A stretch of DNA of 64,000 nt, from the NCBI GenBank assembly GCA_003213235.1, contig QCNJ01000008.1, positions 1 to 64,000 of the forward strand. The letters are read 5' to 3'. This stretch comes from Prochlorococcus sp. AG-424-P18 (GTDB lineage Bacteria; Cyanobacteriota; Cyanobacteriia; PCC-6307; Cyanobiaceae). A program made the translations under genes and the position numbers. Shown one piece after another: positions 34,292 to 42,584 of the stretch; the stretch's first letter is position 1; the number at the start of each line of letters is the position of its first letter. The notes beneath the pieces were generated by a model that searched no databases, was not told the DNA's origin, and saw only the letters and a program-made list of their open reading frames with translations.

Positions 34292-35357
34292 TAGTACATC
34301 TTTTAGTTTTTCAGATTACTTAAAAAATAAGCCATTTCGAGAAGTCTTACCTTGGATAGGTGGCGACTTACAAACTTTGAGAGATACTTTTGTTATTGAT
34401 TTTGGTAAATCAAAAAAAAACAAAAAAATATTCTTTCCGATTAATAAAATTCTCTCTAAAAAATTTGAATGTGATTATCTTTTAGGTTTTTTAGAATTAC
34501 CTGAAAACTTAAACTCACTTAGGGGTTTTGTAATCGTTACACATGGTTTAGGGGGCTCAACTAAACGGTTTGGTTTAAGAAGAATATCTAGGAAATTAGC
34601 AAATAATGGTTTTGGAGTTCTTAAATTAAATCTAAGGGGATCTGGATCAGCGAGATATTTAGCTAAAGGAAATTATTGTGCTAGATGCTCCAGTGATGTT
34701 ATTTCAGCAATTAATTATTTTAAAAAATTTATTAATTTAGAGTTTAAAGATCTCATTAAGGTGAATAATCTTCCAATTTACGGAGTTGGATTATCTTTAG
34801 GCGGAACAATTCTTTTAAACGCCTGCTTAGATTACGATGAAAACAAAGGAGAAAAACTTTTAGATGGCCTAGCCTGTGTAAGTAGCCCTTTAGATTTATC
34901 ATCATGCAGTCTCTGTATTGAAAAATCTAGAAATTATATCTACCAAAAATGGTTACTTCATCGCTTAAAAAATCAGTTATGGGATGGATTTAATGATGAA
35001 GGCAAAATTCTCAATAATGAGAAATTAAGAAAAAAAATTAGAAATTTAAAAAGTATAAGGGAATTTGATCAGAAATTTACAGCTCCAAGTTGGGGATTTG
35101 ATTCTTTAGAAGATTATTATGTTAAAGCTTCTCCAATCTTTAGAATCCAAAACTCAATAAAAAAATTACCTCAAATGCTTTTTATTCATGCCAAGGATGA
35201 TCCCTGGGTTCCATATAAGGATACTTTGAATTTAAGAAAAGAATCTATTGATAAGTGCACTATTTTTGTAACTGAAAAAGGAGGTCATAATGGTTTTCAT
35301 TCAATTAATGGCTGCTGGTCAGACGAAGTCGTAAAGAACTGGTTTATGAGTATCTAG
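34272..35357 (+). CDS. YheT-type alpha/beta hydrolase
   Basis: A 361-aa member of the YheT/UPF0017 hydrolase group. Seen: GGDLQTLRDTF near residue 30, IVTHGLGGSTKRFGLRRIS near 92, NLRGSGSARY, nucleophile motif YGVGLSLGGTIL with Ser near 174, acid HAKDDPWVPY, and His in EKGGHNGFHS near 342. Membrane-lipid or small-ester hydrolysis is typical but unproven. The start is probably the TTG at 34272 or 34278, inside pntB, implying translational coupling; no ATG is available. Confidence 0.85.
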   Translation: MELGRNNSTSFSFSDYLKNKPFREVLPWIGGDLQTLRDTFVIDFGKSKKNKKIFFPINKILSKKFECDYLLGFLELPENLNSLRGFVIVTHGLGGSTKRFGLRRISRKLANNGFGVLKLNLRGSGSARYLAKGNYCARCSSDVISAINYFKKFINLEFKDLIKVNNLPIYGVGLSLGGTILLNACLDYDENKGEKLLDGLACVSSPLDLSSCSLCIEKSRNYIYQKWLLHRLKNQLWDGFNDEGKILNNEKLRKKIRNLKSIREFDQKFTAPSWGFDSLEDYYVKASPIFRIQNSIKKLPQMLFIHAKDDPWVPYKDTLNLRKESIDKCTIFVTEKGGHNGFHSINGCWSDEVVKNWFMSI

Positions 35358-35694
35358 GACTATTTAAAAATGGTGTTTTTTTAAAAATCCATTTTTCTAT
35401 TGGCTTACCGTTAATAATATGTGAGGTAAAAATTTCAGAAATTTTTTCTGGAGAAACTTTCTCATACCAAATACCTTCAGGCCAAATAAGAAGAATTGGG
35501 CCGTTATTACATACCCTTAAACAGTCAGCTTTTGATCTCAATATATGAACGTTTTTTGTAAAGGGATCATTCTCAAATTTTTTTAAAGTCTTTTTCAGAC
35601 ACTCCCATGTTTTTTGACCTTCATTGCCTTTAAAGCATTTCTGTTTTGTGGGAGTTGCGCATAGTAGAAGGTGTTTAGAAACCTCTTTTCCCAT
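35344..35694 (-). CDS. Thioredoxin-like [2Fe-2S] ferredoxin
   Basis: A 116-aa protein of the thioredoxin-fold ferredoxin type. Seen: a first strand SKHLLLCATPTKQKCF with two cysteines, KTWECLKKTLKKF, ADCLRVCNNGPILLIWPEG with two more ligand cysteines, then WYEKVSPEKISEIF. I prefer the ATG at 35694 (MGKEVSKHLLL); a GTG at 35751 would add 19 residues without strand character. Its end overlaps the YheT-like gene by 14 bases on the opposite strand. Confidence 0.82.
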   Translation of the reverse strand: MGKEVSKHLLLCATPTKQKCFKGNEGQKTWECLKKTLKKFENDPFTKNVHILRSKADCLRVCNNGPILLIWPEGIWYEKVSPEKISEIFTSHIINGKPIEKWIFKKTPFLNSPRYS

Positions 35695-35751
35695 TTTAAA
35701 AAAATTTTTCCTATGTGCTTTTAAATTAATTCTAAGGGATGAAAGAAGCAC

Positions 35752-36086
35752 CTGTTAAAAAAAATTTTTTCAATAATTAAAGCAAATTCTCATATTTTTA
35801 TTATTAATATTTGATCTGAAATTAGTTGCAATTAGCTTCTTTTTTATGGATATGTGGAGTTTATGCTGAGATTTTGTAGATGCTCTGGAATCTTCTCATC
35901 CTGAATTTGAAAGTGTTTTTTATCCTATTAAATTCTATACTGAATTAATAATTTCCTGTATTAGTTCTATACAGAAACTTATAATAATTGGTCTTTTTCT
36001 GATATTTTTCTTTGACATTACTTGTCTTTATTGATTTTTGTTTATAAAAATGTAGTTATCGGTACAAATTTTAGAACTTTAATATT
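35752..36086. other. Gene-free gap before the ureido cluster
   Basis: About 335 bases with no convincing open frame on either strand. It holds an imperfect palindrome CTGTATTAGTTCTATACAG near 35960 and, close to the next start, a sequence fitting the NtcA consensus GTA-N8-TAC (36052-36065). It probably carries the promoter of the cluster that follows. Confidence 0.5.
36052..36065 (+). promoter_or_regulatory. NtcA-like box (weak)
   Basis: GTAGTTATCGGTAC matches the GTA-N8-TAC core bound by the nitrogen regulator NtcA. It sits 21 bases before the TTG start of a gene cluster concerned with carbamoyl and amide nitrogen, which fits. However, the following TAATAT is only 14 bases away rather than the canonical 22, and this short core should occur many times by chance in 64 kb. 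Confidence 0.3.
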
Positions 36087-37199
36087 TTGGGATCACAAAG
36101 ATTAAAAACATTACATAAGGATAATTTATTTTCTTTTTCAAGAATAGGACCTGATATTTACGGCTCCACTCATCCTCAGAATTTATTATCTGAAATAAAG
36201 GAAAGAGCAGAATTTCTATATGAGTTATTGGACAGGCATGTAATTTCCATAGACCCCTTCAGTAAAGACTGTCTTCTTCAACTTTTCAGGCTGGCGGCAA
36301 AATTCGAAAGTAACCCAAATAGATATATTTCCCATAACAGTCCCCTCAAGGGAAAGATACTCATAAATGCCTTCTATGAACCAAGCACCAGAACAAGACT
36401 ATCGTTTGACAGCGCATGGCATAGGCTAGGTGGCGATTCAATAAATATCACCGATAAAAGTTCCACTGGAATTGCCAAGGGAGAAACCCATTTGGATATT
36501 GCTCATATGTTTAATAATTACGGTGACTGTGTTGTCCTCAGAGAAAGTGATAATGAGGCGATCTTTGAAATGACAAAATCATTGAGAATCCCAATAATAA
36601 ATGCCGGTAATGGAATCGATGAACACCCCACTCAGGCGATGTCTGACCTTTATACGATTTTTAAATGGAGACCTCATTTGGTTAACAAATTAATTGATGA
36701 TAGTGAAAAAATAACCATTGGTATCATCGGAGTTCCATCACGGATGAGAACAGTCAGATCTCTTCTGAAATTATTCTGTAAGTTTCCATATTTCATAAAA
36801 AAAATTATTGTAATTTACGATGACAAATCAATTGATCAGAACGATCTATTTGATGAAGGCCAGTTGGAACAAATTATTAAATCTGGTCTAAAGATTGAGC
36901 TGGAGACGGATATGCAAAAAGTATTGCCTTCTCTAGACGTTACATATATAAATGCAATTGCATGGGTGGGAGAAAATTATGAGGTTCATGGAAGTGCATT
37001 TAAATTGCACAGTGAGTTGCCATTTAAAAAAAATTCCATAATTTTGCATCCACTTGCTCGTGGCCCTGAATTGTCAACATCACTGGATCAAACCTCAAAA
37101 AATTGGTATTTTGCTCAGTCAAGAGGAGCAGTATTTGTAAGAATGGCATTACTTACCTGTCTGATGGATAGAACAACAAGAGTAATGGATGTCGTTTAA
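36087..37199 (+). CDS. Aspartate-carbamoyltransferase-like enzyme, acceptor unknown
   Basis: A 370-aa carbamoyltransferase homologue. Carbamoyl-phosphate residues are intact: YEPSTRTRLSF (100-104), SSTGIAKGET with Lys131, LRESD with Arg152, and INAGNGIDEHPTQAMSDLYT with His180. Arg221 in SRMRTVRSL matches the aspartate alpha-carboxylate contact. But the loop that in E. coli PyrB carries Arg229/Gln231 (RVQKER) reads INAIAWVGENYE here, and the closing loop is HPLARGPEL rather than HPLPR. There is also an N-terminal extension of about 50 residues. So it probably carbamoylates an amine other than aspartate. TTG start; first gene of a four-gene cluster. Confidence 0.8.
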   Translation: MGSQRLKTLHKDNLFSFSRIGPDIYGSTHPQNLLSEIKERAEFLYELLDRHVISIDPFSKDCLLQLFRLAAKFESNPNRYISHNSPLKGKILINAFYEPSTRTRLSFDSAWHRLGGDSINITDKSSTGIAKGETHLDIAHMFNNYGDCVVLRESDNEAIFEMTKSLRIPIINAGNGIDEHPTQAMSDLYTIFKWRPHLVNKLIDDSEKITIGIIGVPSRMRTVRSLLKLFCKFPYFIKKIIVIYDDKSIDQNDLFDEGQLEQIIKSGLKIELETDMQKVLPSLDVTYINAIAWVGENYEVHGSAFKLHSELPFKKNSIILHPLARGPELSTSLDQTSKNWYFAQSRGAVFVRMALLTCLMDRTTRVMDVV

Positions 37200-37203
37200 C
37201 TAG

Positions 37204-39216
37204 ATGTGTGGAATAGGGGGGGTTTTTAATAAATCAAAAAATAAATCTGTTGAACCTCAGATTCTAGTAAATATGGCTGCTATTCAAAGCCATCGTGGGC
37301 CGGACGGCTTTGGATATAAATTATCAGATGATGGTTCTGTAGGATTCTGTCATACGAGACTATCAATAATAGATTTAAATGAAAATCGAGCTAGACAGCC
37401 TTTTGTTGGAGGTGCCGAAAATCATATTTTGATGGCACATAATGGTGAATTTTATGACTTTCAAAGAATCAGGGCTGATCTTGTTGCTCAGGGCGTAAGC
37501 TTTTCTTCAAAAAGTGATTCGGAAATATTGCTTAGACTTTATGAGAAATATGGCATTGATAAGTCATTATCTTATCTGAGAGGAGAATTTGCCTTTTCGT
37601 TGTTTGATGCAGATCAGGATTGTCTTTATCTTGTAAGAGATCGATTTGGGATTAAACCTCAATACTGGATTGAGACCGATGATTCCTTAATATTTGGCTC
37701 TGAATTAAAAGTACTGTTTGCCCATCCATCAGTTGAAAGAAAATTTACAGGTGAAGGACTGGTTCATCAATTGATGCAGGTTATGGTCCCCGGCTCTACG
37801 GCATTTGCAGGTGTTAAACAAGTTAAGCCTGGATATATTCTTAAGGTCAAAAGATTAAATAATAAATTTCAGATAACAGAGGAAAAGTTCTGGGATATAA
37901 ATTTCCCAAAGAAAAACACTTATGAAAGAGAAAAAAGTGAAGAATATTTTATTGAAAATATTAGAAAAGAATTGTTGAGAGCTGTGGAATTAAGAATGGT
38001 CGCTGATGTTCCGGTCGGCTGTTATTTATCCGGTGGAATTGATAGTTGCTCAATTCTGGGATTGGCTTCTGCCATAAGTCAAAAATCAGTAAAGGCATTC
38101 ACGATTGGTTTCAGTGATGAAAGATATGATGAAACTTCGATTGCAAAAGAGATGGCTGTCGCCACAAATGCAGACCATGAGATTTTAAAAATAAATGGGG
38201 ATGATCTGTATAGGAATTTTGAAAAGGTTCTATGGTTTACTGAAAGATCTATATATAACACCCTTGCAATTGCCAAATACCTTATGAGTAAAAGAGTGAA
38301 TGAGCTCGATTATAAGGTCGTTATGACAGGAGAGGGTTCAGATGAATTGTTTGGAGGCTATCCCGCGTTCAGAAAAGATATGTATACCTATGGGGTAGGA
38401 ATTTCTAATTCAGAATCTGAGAATTTTAAAGAAAATCTAGAAAATTCAAATAATATTTTCAAGGGCGCGATGCTAGCTAATGAAGAGATAAGTAATCAAT
38501 CTTTCAAGGAATTCTTAGGATTTACGCCAAGTTGTCTTCAACCTTGGCTTGCATGTGAAACTTATGCAAAAAGTCTAGTCTCAAGTAAATATAAAGAGTT
38601 AACGGAAGATTATGATCCTGGAGCGGCAATTTTTGGAGAACTTGATCTTGAACAGTTAGAAGATAGATACGCAATTGATCAGGCTCAGTACGTTTGGATG
38701 AAGACTATGCTTGAGGGCCAAATTCTCACATGGGGAGGAGATAGAGTGGACATGTCAAATTCAATGGAGGCCAGACCTGCATTTTTAGATCATCACCTAG
38801 CAGAAGCTGCTGTTGCTGTTCCCCCTGAATTAAGGATTAAAGACAATGTCGAGAAGTATGTTTTAAGAGAAGCCATGTCAGGATTACTGCCTGAATCATT
38901 ATATAAACGTGAAAAATTTCCTTTTATGGCTCCCCCTTCCCATGCAGATAAAGATAATTTAAGTTCTATGCAGGAAATTGTGGATGAGTTTTTAAGTCCT
39001 GAGAGGATAAGAGAATTTGGAATCTTGGATGAAACAGAAGTAAATAATTTGCTGAATAAATTTTTTAGTTCAGAGCTTGATGCCTCAGAAAAAGTACAAT
39101 TGGATGCAATAATCAATCATCTTTTAAGTGTTCAGATTTTATATAAGATTTTTATAATTGATAATATCCCAGATAAGGCTCAAAAGATGGCTGATAATTT
39201 GGGTTGGAAAGTTTGA
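37204..39216 (+). CDS. asnB: Glutamine-hydrolysing asparagine synthase-like amidotransferase
   Basis: A 670-aa protein with an N-terminal class II glutaminase domain (MCGIGGVF with nucleophile Cys2, HRGPDGFG, AHNGEFYDF) and a C-terminal ATP pyrophosphatase domain (PVGCYLSGGIDSCSILGL PP-loop near residue 270, VVMTGEGSDELFGGYP near 375, DRVDMSNSMEARPAFLDH). It adenylates a carboxylate and amidates it with glutamine nitrogen. It is longer than E. coli AsnB (554 aa). Starting 4 bases after a carbamoyltransferase-like gene, it may act on a ureido acid instead of aspartate; that is inference. Confidence 0.88.
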   Translation: MCGIGGVFNKSKNKSVEPQILVNMAAIQSHRGPDGFGYKLSDDGSVGFCHTRLSIIDLNENRARQPFVGGAENHILMAHNGEFYDFQRIRADLVAQGVSFSSKSDSEILLRLYEKYGIDKSLSYLRGEFAFSLFDADQDCLYLVRDRFGIKPQYWIETDDSLIFGSELKVLFAHPSVERKFTGEGLVHQLMQVMVPGSTAFAGVKQVKPGYILKVKRLNNKFQITEEKFWDINFPKKNTYEREKSEEYFIENIRKELLRAVELRMVADVPVGCYLSGGIDSCSILGLASAISQKSVKAFTIGFSDERYDETSIAKEMAVATNADHEILKINGDDLYRNFEKVLWFTERSIYNTLAIAKYLMSKRVNELDYKVVMTGEGSDELFGGYPAFRKDMYTYGVGISNSESENFKENLENSNNIFKGAMLANEEISNQSFKEFLGFTPSCLQPWLACETYAKSLVSSKYKELTEDYDPGAAIFGELDLEQLEDRYAIDQAQYVWMKTMLEGQILTWGGDRVDMSNSMEARPAFLDHHLAEAAVAVPPELRIKDNVEKYVLREAMSGLLPESLYKREKFPFMAPPSHADKDNLSSMQEIVDEFLSPERIREFGILDETEVNNLLNKFFSSELDASEKVQLDAIINHLLSVQILYKIFIIDNIPDKAQKMADNLGWKV

Positions 39217-39310
39217 ATTCTTTCCTTAAATTAATTTCTTAAAAGGTGTAAATCAATACAGGTTTTATTTGAAAAATAAGAGATCTTAAATAGGTTCAAG
39301 TAATGGACGT

Positions 39311-40588
39311 ATGAGCTATAGCGCTGGGTTAAATATCCTAGAGCCACAGGTAATAAATAGGGAGAGAATCCAAGAATTGATAAATTCTTTTTCTTCAATC
39401 GGAGCTTCTGAGAATGGCTCTGTTTCAAGAAGAGGTTTTTCTGATGAAGATATATATGCAAGAAATTTTTTTATAAAAACCCTTAAAGACTTAGGTTTAA
39501 AAATAAGAATAGATACTGCAGGAAATATTATTGCAAGATTAGATGGTCATGATAATAATTTACCTCCAATTGTTACTGGATCTCATCTCGACACTGTTCC
39601 AAAGGGAGGTAAATATGACGGAACTTTAGGAGTAATTGCAGGAATTGAAATTGCTTTTTACCTGCAGGAAAATGACATTAAATTAAATAGACCATTTGAA
39701 ATAATCGTCTTTGCTGATGAAGAATCGACAATGATTGGTTGTAAAGGCTTTACAGGTAATTTATCTGTAGACGAAGAAGATTTTATTACCAGTAATTCTT
39801 GCTCAATAATTCATAATCTTTCTCGGATTGGTGGAAATTGGCTTGAGATTAAAAGTGCGGCAAGAAGTAAAAATGATATATTCGCTTTTCTTGAATTACA
39901 TGTTGAACAGGGAAAGGTTCTAGAAGATGGTGGTTTGGATATCGGAATTGTTAATGGAATAGTAGGTCAAAAAAGAATAACGGTTAAGGTTACAGGCCAG
40001 GCAAATCATGCAGGAACTACACCGATGTCAAATAGAAATGACGCACTTTTGGCCGCCTCTAAAATTATTGTTGGTATTGAACAGATTGCTAAAACTACTT
40101 CTGAAAGTGCAGTCGCAACAGTTGGTAAATTGAAATTACATCCCAATGCGGCAAATGTTATTCCAGGAGAGGCAGTATTCACTATAGATATGAGAGATTT
40201 GGATGAAGATGTAATTGGGAAAATGAGTTTAAGAATTGAGAATCTATGTTCAGAAATTCAAGAAGTTACTGGATGCGTAGTACAGATAGAACCTCAATTT
40301 GAAGTGTTTCCCACTAAGTCATGCCCTAAATTAGTGAGATCTTCATTTCATGAATCTGAAAAGTTGGGATTTAAAACTGGAATCTTACCAAGCAAAGCCA
40401 GTCATGACTCACAAGAAATAGGTAAGATTTGTCCTATGGTTATGATCTTTGTCCCAAGTAGGAATGGTCTGAGTCATTCCTATAAGGAATATACTTCTCT
40501 TGATGAATGCGCTAATGGTATTGAGGTTTTATTGAATACAATATTTTCCATTGATAAGAATTTTTTAGACAAGCCTCTAATGACATAA
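39311..40588 (+). CDS. Zn-dependent hydrolase, hydantoinase/carbamoylase family
   Basis: A 425-aa M20-like amidohydrolase related to allantoate amidohydrolase, beta-ureidopropionase and N-carbamoyl-L-amino-acid hydrolase. Metal ligands are visible: His92 in GSHLDTVPKGG, Asp103 in KYDGTLG, Glu137/138 in FADEEST, His in ELHVEQGKVLE, and His in a late LSHSYKEYT. GQANHAGTTPMSNRNDAL is the dimerisation-domain signature. The family hydrolyses a ureido or amide bond, releasing ammonia and CO2. One base separates it from the DUF1028 gene. Confidence 0.88.
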   Translation: MSYSAGLNILEPQVINRERIQELINSFSSIGASENGSVSRRGFSDEDIYARNFFIKTLKDLGLKIRIDTAGNIIARLDGHDNNLPPIVTGSHLDTVPKGGKYDGTLGVIAGIEIAFYLQENDIKLNRPFEIIVFADEESTMIGCKGFTGNLSVDEEDFITSNSCSIIHNLSRIGGNWLEIKSAARSKNDIFAFLELHVEQGKVLEDGGLDIGIVNGIVGQKRITVKVTGQANHAGTTPMSNRNDALLAASKIIVGIEQIAKTTSESAVATVGKLKLHPNAANVIPGEAVFTIDMRDLDEDVIGKMSLRIENLCSEIQEVTGCVVQIEPQFEVFPTKSCPKLVRSSFHESEKLGFKTGILPSKASHDSQEIGKICPMVMIFVPSRNGLSHSYKEYTSLDECANGIEVLLNTIFSIDKNFLDKPLMT

Positions 40589-41275
40589 ATGACATTTTCA
40601 ATTATTGGTTTTGATCCTTTAAAAAATAGATTTGGTGTTGCAGTTTCTTCTTGTCATATAGCTGTTGGCTCAACAGTTTCATTTGTTAGATCACAGGTTG
40701 GAGCTGTTGCAACTCAAGGGCAAACTAATCCGTATTTAGGATTAAGAAGTCTTGAGTCACTCCAATCCTGCTCTGATTCCAAAGTTGTTTTGGAAGACTT
40801 AATTAAAGAAGATTTTGGTAGGGAAAAAAGACAGGTTCACTTAATTGATAAGTATGGGAGAAGCGCATGCTGGACAGGTCAAGAATGTTTTCAGGCAAGC
40901 GGACATATAAGTGGAGAAAACTTTTCTGTAGCTGGCAATTTTCTAGAGAATATTGAAGTTCTTGAGGTGATGGCTGATGTTTTTAAACAAAGTGATCCAA
41001 ATATCAAATTAGGGAAAAGACTACTTGATGCTCTTAATGCAGGAGAAAATATAGGTGGAGATAGACGAAGCCCCCGTTCAACCTCGAGCGCCTTAAAGGT
41101 AAGCGGAGAACTAGACTTTCCCCTTTTAGACCTTAGAGTTGATTATCATGATTCTTCTTTAGATGAACTAATTAGAATTTATAGACATAGTCAAAGTGAG
41201 TGGGCCCAGGAATGGAGAGATTCAATGAATGACTTGCCTGAAATGAATATGAAACGAGAATTTAGAGTGGCATAA
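40589..41275 (+). CDS. DUF1028 family protein (Ntn-hydrolase-like)
   Basis: A 228-aa protein with the DUF1028 opening MTFSIIGFDPLKNRFGVAVS, then VGAVATQGQTNPYLGLRSLE, WTGQECFQASGHISGENFSV and AGENIGGDRRSPRSTSSALK. The family is thought to have an Ntn-hydrolase-like fold with a residue near the N-terminus as nucleophile; its substrate is unknown. Its ATG directly follows the carbamoylase stop codon, so the two are almost certainly translated together, which argues for a role on the same ureido or amide compound. Confidence 0.85.
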   Translation: MTFSIIGFDPLKNRFGVAVSSCHIAVGSTVSFVRSQVGAVATQGQTNPYLGLRSLESLQSCSDSKVVLEDLIKEDFGREKRQVHLIDKYGRSACWTGQECFQASGHISGENFSVAGNFLENIEVLEVMADVFKQSDPNIKLGKRLLDALNAGENIGGDRRSPRSTSSALKVSGELDFPLLDLRVDYHDSSLDELIRIYRHSQSEWAQEWRDSMNDLPEMNMKREFRVA

Positions 41276-41354
41276 AGTTTAAAGACTTTGCTTGTAAGTT
41301 CAGCATCCAATAGTCGTAAGAAATGGTTAGTTAGGTGACTTTTAATATTCCCTT

Positions 41355-42584
41355 TTATCCAATACTTACGTATTTTTTCCCTTTTTTAATTTCTTGCTTA
41401 ACAAAAAGTCTGGCCCAATTGTCTACTTCAAGAATATCCTCCAATTCGGGACTCAAATTCAAATTCTCCATATGTGATTCACAAGCTTTACTTATAAATG
41501 TGGGAATTTCTTGAAAAGAAATTTTTTCTTTAAGGAATTGTTCAACAGCCATTTCATTAGCAGCATTTAAGACTGCAGGCATAGTCCCAGAAGATTTTCC
41601 TGCGGCATAGGCAAGTCCCATGCATGGATATTTAAACTCGTCTGGCTCTTTAAAAGTTAATTTTCCAATTTCACTTAGGTTTAATCTTTTCCAATTTGTT
41701 TTAAATCTCTCAGGCCAACTCATCGCATATAAAATAGGTAGTTTCATATCTGGCCAACCTAATTGAGCTAATACTGAAGAATCATCCATCTCAATCATTG
41801 AATGAATAATACTTTGAGGGTGGATAACTATTTCGATATTTTCGTAGGAGGTCCCAAATAAATAATGAGCTTCTATAACTTCTAATCCTTTATTCATAAG
41901 AGTTGCAGAATCTACAGTTATTTTTTTCCCCATATCCCAATTAGGATGCGATGTAGCATCTTCCACTGTGACATGTTTTAAATCCTCAACGGCCCAATCT
42001 CTGAAAGCACCACCAGAAGCTGTTAAATGTATGGCTTTTAAACCTTTAGGTATCTCACCTGTTGAAAAATCTGCATTTTCATAATTGGGTAATCCTTGTA
42101 AACATTGAAAGATGGCAGAGTGTTCTGAATCAGCAGGTAAAAGCCTACTATTATTTTTCTTTAATGCAGGAATAACAATTGGCCCTGCCGCAATTAAAGT
42201 TTCTTTGTTAGCAAGTGCAATGTTTTTCCCCGCATTAATTGCTGACATTGTTGGAATTAAGCCTGCACAGCCAACTATCCCTGTAACCACAGTATCTGCC
42301 TTATCCCATGCTGCAACTGCGTTAATCCCCTCCTTTCCACTCAAAACCAATGGAGCAATATCTAAATCTAAGTTATTAATATTATCTTTTAAATCTTCTA
42401 TAAGATTTTCATCCTCAATCGCAACTACTTCTGGTTTATGTGTTTTAACTTGTTCGGTTAATAAATTAATATTTCTCCCTGCCGAAAGAGCTACGGCTTT
42501 AAACTTATCAGGCTGCTCACTTGCTATTTCGAGAGTTTGAGTCCCAATTGAACCAGTAGAACCGAGAACAGTAATGTATTTCAA
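41355..42584 (-). CDS. dxr: 1-deoxy-D-xylulose 5-phosphate reductoisomerase
   Basis: A 409-aa enzyme of the methylerythritol phosphate isoprenoid pathway, converting DXP to MEP with NADPH. Seen: nucleotide motif [45 protein letters not shown] with metal ligands, [32 protein letters not shown], and a C-terminal helical domain. Length is normal. Supplies precursors for carotenoids and phytol. Confidence 0.96.

Follow-up and report, generated by a model that had tools for sequence, protein, structure and literature searches.

The NAGGN (N-acetylglutaminylglutamine amide) type of solute combines a blocked amino group with an amidated carboxyl group and is made by an AsnB-type enzyme. A solute of similar design, N-carbamoyl-glutamine 1-amide (CGA), has been described in Ectothiorhodospira marismortui (also called E. 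mobilis; PMC1224877; PMC3857566). Passages of the second paper describe CGA as a minor solute found in one organism so far; betaine was dominant in E. marismortui, and none of the Raman signals was attributed to CGA, a compound absent from the spectral library used there (PMC3857566). Unlike this one-organism statement, part of another article speaks of CGA in other purple sulfur bacteria, and names N-carbamoyl-glutamine amide as one of three candidate solutes of Ectothiorhodosinus mongolicus, which is said to be without betaine and ectoine synthesis (PMC7824335). Genes for CGA synthesis were not found in print in the portions of the open-licence literature that were searched.

Here we describe a conserved cassette of four genes, located in a stretch of Prochlorococcus DNA of 64,000 nucleotides (hereafter the window). 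Judging from sequence comparison, from which its substrates, reaction order, product and role are deduced, this cassette probably makes and recycles CGA, a predicted osmolyte. The features of the locus are listed below.

Table 1. Features of the cassette locus, in window coordinates.
Feature	Position	Strand	Basis or remark
Flanking ferredoxin-like gene	35344..35751	-	Weak PF01257 match, 21.7 bits, under the cut-off of 24.8; left insertion border lies in its 5' end
Inserted block with the cassette	35677..41339	.	In empty-site relatives, position 35676 directly adjoins 41340
ATCL, carbamoyltransferase resembling aspartate carbamoyltransferase (ATCase); proposed L-glutamine N-alpha-carbamoyltransferase	36087..37199	+	ORF, Pfam, alignment, tree, fold match
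ASN, glutamine-dependent amidotransferase of the asparagine synthase family; proposed maker of N-carbamoyl-glutamine 1-amide	37204..39216	+	
M20 hydrolase of the hydantoinase/carbamoylase family; proposed to remove the carbamoyl group	39311..40588	+	
DUF1028 protein; proposed 1-amide hydrolase	40589..41275	+	Place held by an isochorismatase-type hydrolase (ISO) in gammaproteobacteria
Flanking gene at the right border, presumably dxr	41355..42584	-	

The ATCL protein has 370 residues and a TTG start in the ORF list, a start codon also present in all six relatives inspected. It matched PF02729 with 138.4 bits and PF00185 with 39.7 bits. The nearest solved structures, both by sequence and by fold, are ATCases, in the fold comparison Plasmodium ATCase (5iln, Z 34.4) and E. 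coli ATCase with PALA (1d09, Z 32.8, rmsd 2.3, 301 aligned residues), which bears out the homology to ATCase claimed in the preliminary description of this locus.

Alignment with E. coli PyrB (ATCL residues in brackets) showed that S52/T53/R54/T55 (S100/T101/R102/T103), K84 (K131), R105 (R152), H134 (H180) and Q137 (Q183), which we take to be the carbamoyl-phosphate ligands in PyrB numbering, are all kept, as are R167/T168 (R221/T222), P266/L267 (P322/L323), R269 (R325) and R296 (R352). The changed positions are R229-V230-Q231, which became A290-I291-A292, V270 (G326) and the Ser80 column (Gly128); Arg229 and Gln231 of PyrB are the ligands of the aspartate beta-carboxylate. Among 25 aligned ATCL orthologues, the window's copy included, the carbamoyl-phosphate site and the alpha-carboxylate arginine (Arg221) are invariant, and so are N289, I291, A292, W293 and the closing loop HPLARG, while position 290 is occupied by A, S or T, and Arg229 and Gln231 are both gone in every copy. 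The retained ligands, the lost aspartate side-chain site and the HPLARG loop, which had been noticed in the single protein, are shared by all 25 orthologues. This invariance shows that the change to the A-I-A loop is fixed and does not reflect decay. The gene is under purifying selection, with pairwise dN/dS values of 0.07-0.14 in 10/10 Prochlorococcus comparisons.

An N-terminal extension of about 50 residues had also been described. The extension is real, and is conserved within the family from G26 onward in the 25-orthologue alignment, but it is nearer 43 residues long, as PyrB residue 1 aligns with residue 42-44 or so in the structure comparison. The structure model has pLDDT values below 50 at residues 1-21 and low values also at 99-101; over residues 291-300, in the acceptor-loop stretch, the mean is 55. 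Family-invariant basic residues of ATCL, such as R167, K193, K314 and R346, are possible compensators for the lost Arg229 and Gln231, in a model whose loop has low pLDDT. The residue changes would exclude aspartate more clearly than they would select glutamine.

Three PF02729 genes were found in this Prochlorococcus genome (89% complete): ATCL, L153 on contig C18, which is a canonical PyrB (R-L-Q motif, 278.6 bits versus the TIGR00670 cut-off of 236.95), and L152 on contig C3, which is an ornithine carbamoyltransferase (OTCase; SMG motif, 383 bits versus the TIGR00658 cut-off of 280.85). One could regard ATCL as a redundant or degenerating ATCase that serves pyrimidine synthesis, as it has the ATCase fold, with Z 32.8 to 1d09, and matches TIGR00670 with E = 6.8e-56. 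However, its 189.6 bits lie under the cut-off that the genome's own PyrB exceeds, both aspartate ligands are lost in 25/25 orthologues, the dN/dS values are low and the cassette is fixed, so that this explanation appears extremely improbable. The objection to a distinct function that would have followed from the absence of any other pyrB likewise fails, since the canonical gene is present.

The other known branches of the family were also considered. ATCL has neither the DxxxSMG nor the HCLP motif, both of which occur in the OTCases of these genomes, and it scores 25.2 bits with TIGR03316 (knotted carbamoyltransferase YgeW) and 66.9 bits with TIGR04384 (putrescine carbamoyltransferase, PTCase), each against a cut-off of 500. 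The tree with ATCases, OTCases and YgeW that had been proposed for this protein placed ATCL with the ATCases, the OTCase and YgeW branches being long. Cut-offs, motifs and tree position rule out ATCL as an OTCase, YgeW or PTCase.

Six gammaproteobacterial genomes gave weaker matches (E 1e-47 to 4.5e-66), and G778 gave a weaker second one; none of these was counted as an ATCL orthologue. Five of these seven sequences (L137-L140 and L142) were taken into the tree, and L141 and L144 were left out. L142 fell outside the ATCL branch and L137-L140 inside it, meaning that the ATCL set without the latter is not strictly one clade. L137, L138, L139 and L140 are gammaproteobacterial ATCase-like paralogues, matched over some 330-340 residues, with altered carbamoyl-phosphate motifs, and three of them have another residue in place of the catalytic-site histidine. 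Perhaps they are not enzymes, or they have acquired a new role.

The gene that follows ATCL, ASN, is the only PF00733 gene found in this genome (again with reference to its 89% completeness), and its product begins with MCGI, as in glutamine-dependent amidotransferases. Its score with TIGR01536 (asparagine synthase; 432.4 bits, cut-off 267.1) is not discriminating, as NAGGN and XrtA amidotransferases pass this cut-off too. With TIGR03104 (NAGGN amidotransferase, cut-off 570.1), ASN of the window reached 305.5 bits and that of the cassette in the gammaproteobacterial genome G853 reached 300.7 bits, whereas the true NAGGN amidotransferase of the same G853 genome reached 985.2 bits. ASN was therefore rejected as a NAGGN amidotransferase: it scores under the cut-off, belongs to another clade, and in G853 and its relatives a separate NAGGN gene is present.

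The M20 protein has an N-carbamoyl-L-amino acid hydrolase as its nearest solved relative (3n5f, E = 2.4e-75). It passes the cut-offs of TIGR01879 (hydantoinase/carbamoylase family, 380.6 versus 204 bits) and of NF006771 (named allantoate amidohydrolase, 430.3 versus 399 bits), and lies under that of ErtE (N-carbamyl-L-glutamate amidohydrolase, 385.1 versus 520 bits). The neighbouring carbamoylase and amidotransferase would fit an alpha-amino acid as the acceptor of ATCL. Together with the replaced site residues in all 25 orthologues, these neighbours lend support to the earlier suggestion that the acceptor is an alpha-amino compound without a beta-carboxylate.

We propose the following pathway. 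In the first step, ATCL would use carbamoyl phosphate to carbamoylate L-glutamine at its alpha-amino group; the loss of Arg229 and Gln231 would make room for a neutral side chain, and G326 together with the A-I-A loop would leave no charged partner for a beta-carboxylate. Since the retained Arg221 would hold a free alpha-carboxylate, carbamoylation would precede amidation. In the second step, the AsnB-type ASN would activate the alpha-carboxylate with ATP and amidate it with glutamine nitrogen to yield CGA, a step that may be likened to NAGGN synthesis. For turnover, DUF1028 in cyanobacteria, or ISO in gammaproteobacteria, would remove the 1-amide, and M20 would remove the carbamoyl group, giving glutamine. 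The sodium/solute symporter (SSF) of many carriers may re-import the solute. The parts of the cassette fit the predicted chemistry of CGA: a carbamoyltransferase that lacks the beta-carboxylate site, together with an amidotransferase, a carbamoylase and an amidase-type hydrolase.

The same parts could be arranged differently. N-acetyl groups protect the amino group in arginine and lysine synthesis, and the presence of a carbamoyltransferase and a carbamoylase in one conserved cassette might likewise mean that the carbamoyl is a protecting group: an amino acid, glutamine or another, would be carbamoylated, amidated and decarbamoylated by M20, and a free amino acid amide would be the intermediate. 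This arrangement leaves the amidase (ISO or DUF1028) unexplained, the conserved neighbours, as far as they were annotated, revealed no additional enzyme gene of note, and we consider it very improbable.

A scan of named genomes found an ATCL orthologue at at least 64% identity in 43 of 47 loci. ASN follows ATCL in 41 of these 43 cyanobacterial loci and M20 is present in 37, followed by DUF1028 in 34 of the 37; elsewhere the contig ends. The order SSF symporter, ATCL, ASN, M20, DUF1028 was seen in 7/7 Synechococcus-type regions. Carriers include Prochlorococcus MIT 9314 (L036) and Synechococcus MU1642 (L066). Within the genus, 20 of 151 genomes carry ATCL (18 with the whole gene at at least 95% identity and two with pieces at contig ends), and two of the 151 gave no match at all. 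Among cyanobacterial genomes in general, ATCL was found at E <= 1e-55 in 17/386, all within the window's own family. A plasmid search returned 145 records, all below 60% identity, and the annotated ones among the best 15 of the 145 were pyrB. The Synechococcus-type genome G513 has two ATCL copies (L146 and G513:C1:2535830-2536897), with an ASN gene near each. A Prochlorococcus-like cassette (L043, 96% identity) lies on a contig of a Trichodesmium MAG (JAKQYF010000253.1), probably as a contamination.

Relatives of this Prochlorococcus show a clean empty site where the cassette has been inserted. In 5/5 empty-site loci compared, the two positions that border the inserted block lie next to each other, give or take a few bases. 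Of 12 cassette-free Prochlorococcus genomes examined, nine have the ferredoxin-like gene directly beside dxr, an arrangement not seen in the other three (G137, G041 and G022). G128 and G060 carry the cassette at this site, and G120 and G141 carry it elsewhere and have an empty junction here. The block common to carriers with different flanks measures about 5.35 kb at minimum, and in some of them up to about 7.2 kb. The four cassette genes are passed on or moved together. In two loci (L047 and L056), a tRNA-Thr gene lies some 600 bases upstream. The ferredoxin-like gene encodes 135 residues in the window and aligns with its empty-site relatives only up to window position 35676, and its N-terminus may come from the inserted DNA.

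In gammaproteobacteria, a draw of 369 genomes gave 29 with a match at E <= 1e-45, and ATCL was present at E <= 6.3e-92 in 22/368 (model A1). An even draw across Pseudomonadota gave only 1/397 genomes at E <= 1e-60 (model A2), a low count that weakens the reach of the gene set. The centre of both draws, G527, was excluded from the counts of 22 and 1; it is titled Gammaproteobacteria and bears a Synechococcus-like copy, probably a contaminant. On L068 (NYVG01000026.1), a contig whose record is titled Gammaproteobacteria, lies a Synechococcus-like cassette with 66% identity to the window protein, probably a binning contaminant.

Of the 22 gammaproteobacterial regions 21 were analysed, with G843, which is split over contigs, left out. 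ASN, M20 and ISO were each found in 20 regions and the SSF symporter in 17, and the two regions without ASN or M20 run off short contigs. ISO occurs in 20/21 gammaproteobacterial and 0/7 cyanobacterial loci, whereas DUF1028 occurs in 0/21 and 7/7, respectively. As one replaces the other between the two kinds of cassette, this distribution suggests that ISO and DUF1028 do one job. The nearest relatives of ISO are cysteine and biuret hydrolases, which cleave amides. A small protein, membrane-anchored as judged by eye, precedes M20 (L130, 13442-13942, and L134, 546-1058); members of its cluster occur in 10 of 33 loci compared.

Against CGA synthesis, it may be said that degradative enzymes adjoin, which makes a catabolic reading possible. 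An N-carbamoyl amide would then be taken up and cut by DUF1028 or ISO together with M20, and ATCL acting in reverse would harvest carbamoyl phosphate. PTCase and OTCase can run catabolically, and the M20 and amidase-type genes, as well as the symporter of 17/21 gammaproteobacterial and 7/7 Synechococcus-type loci, are what such a unit would contain. However, it fails to explain the ATP-consuming ASN that adjoins ATCL in 20/21 gammaproteobacterial and 41/43 cyanobacterial loci, and neither the window nor four mapped Prochlorococcus loci nor ten Ectothiorhodospira-type loci yielded an SSF gene. The lack of a symporter gene in the latter ten also counts against the CGA pathway. We therefore regard a catabolic unit as very unlikely and retain CGA synthesis with turnover as the preferred reading.

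These ten loci link the cassette to the organisms from which CGA was described. In the GTDB genus of G853, ATCL is present in 10/10 genomes in the order M20-ISO-ATCL-ASN, with ATCL of G907 split in two frames. This group matches Ectothiorhodospira and Ectothiorhodosinus, and we infer the identity of its members from the following features. G853 has a local GC content of 0.685 and shares 93.8% identity over 17 kb with G904, and the consulted part of a published description gives 68.2% GC for E. marismortui DSM 4180 (FOUO00000000) and 92.6% ANI to E. mobilis. G853 thus matches E. marismortui DSM 4180 in GC content and relatedness, and G904 would fit E. mobilis. G637 has a local GC content of 0.552 and one HiPIP, and the values given in the published text available for Ectothiorhodosinus mongolicus are 55.6% and one HiPIP, which would fit an assignment to that species; GTDB places G637 in the same genus as G853, and published genus boundaries, in the part consulted, keep Ectothiorhodosinus apart. 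A HiPIP of G906 is identical in 71/71 positions to PDB 1hpi, which we take to be the HiPIP of E. vacuolata. Genes pufL/M were found in 2/25 gammaproteobacterial genomes with matches, G853 being one of the two. The cassette is present in all ten of the genomes that match the CGA producer and its relatives, a wider spread than the one-organism statement of PMC3857566 would suggest.

Each of these ten genomes contains three PF02729 genes (four matches in G907, owing to the split ATCL). Judged by motif, the best-scoring gene is an OTCase in 10/10, and the second, with HPGP, is an ATCase in 7/7 loci returned from the ten genomes; in G853, both pass the NCBIfam cut-offs. ArgF and PyrB would then be the only other enzymes of the ATCL fold in these genomes, as checked with NCBIfam in G853. 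A separate NAGGN amidotransferase, from another clade than ASN, was found in 6/6 genomes examined (G853, G904, G900, G905, G906 and G637), with 964-993 bits against the cut-off of 570.1.

This link also bears on the choice of acceptor. Under the same pathway logic, asparagine, alanine, glycine or a peptide N-terminus could be carbamoylated and another N-carbamoyl amide formed, as the lost Arg229 and Gln231 and the A-I-A-W loop would exclude aspartate and do not identify glutamine, and M20 enzymes as a family accept many different N-carbamoyl-L-amino acids. On the other hand, the glutamine compound is the sole N-carbamoyl amino acid amide that we found reported from cassette carriers, and G853 has no spare carbamoyltransferase of this fold left to make it. 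Another acceptor is thus unlikely, and glutamine is preferred. We would go further and suggest, with about even confidence, that the cassette represents the genes for CGA, which a salt-loving purple bacterium has been known to contain since 1991, that these have spread to marine Synechococcus and Prochlorococcus, and that DUF1028 proteins act as amidases on N-carbamoyl-amino acid amides.

The open-licence literature searched yielded no record of CGA in any cyanobacterium, and the word 'carbamoyl' does not occur in the consulted portions of papers on picocyanobacterial salinity and ecology and on Prochlorococcus metabolites. CGA contains four nitrogens, and one would not expect a nitrogen-rich osmolyte in Prochlorococcus. 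High-light Prochlorococcus is said, in a passage of PMC3686209, to rely on nitrogen-free osmolytes; therefore CGA may serve there to store nitrogen or as a solute under certain conditions, or the cassette may make a different product. If the proposal is true, part of the ocean's abundant picocyanobacteria would contain an uncharged nitrogen-rich solute, with a possible flux of organic nitrogen to their neighbours; for Synechococcus and Prochlorococcus, we found neither an osmolyte nor a nitrogen store with four nitrogens of the CGA kind reported earlier. The ATCase/OTCase family would gain a member with a new predicted acceptor, and the cassette suggests a role for the DUF1028 family. Two enzymes and one metabolite would suffice for a direct test of the CGA assignment.

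Compared with known systems, ATCL shares with PyrB the fold, the carbamoyl-phosphate ligands, the alpha-carboxylate arginine and the HPL motif, but differs from it in lacking Arg229 and Gln231, in its A-I-A-W-V-G loop, in HPLARG, in the N-terminal extension, in its own tree branch and in its operon. With OTCase and YgeW it has in common the fold and STRTR, and its loop N-x-x-x-W-V-G, devoid of the ATCase residues, aligns with D-x-x-x-S-M-G of OTCase; however, it contains neither HCLP nor SMG, and the tree groups it with the ATCases. The M20 protein belongs to the same family as the N-carbamoyl-L-amino acid hydrolases, including ErtE, but adjoins a carbamoyltransferase and an amidotransferase. 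Finally, the proposed CGA route resembles NAGGN biosynthesis in leading to a glutamine-derived solute with a blocked amino group and an amidated carboxyl, made with an AsnB-type enzyme, and would differ from it in that a carbamoyl group replaces the acetyl group and the dipeptide, and in that the amidotransferase comes from another clade.
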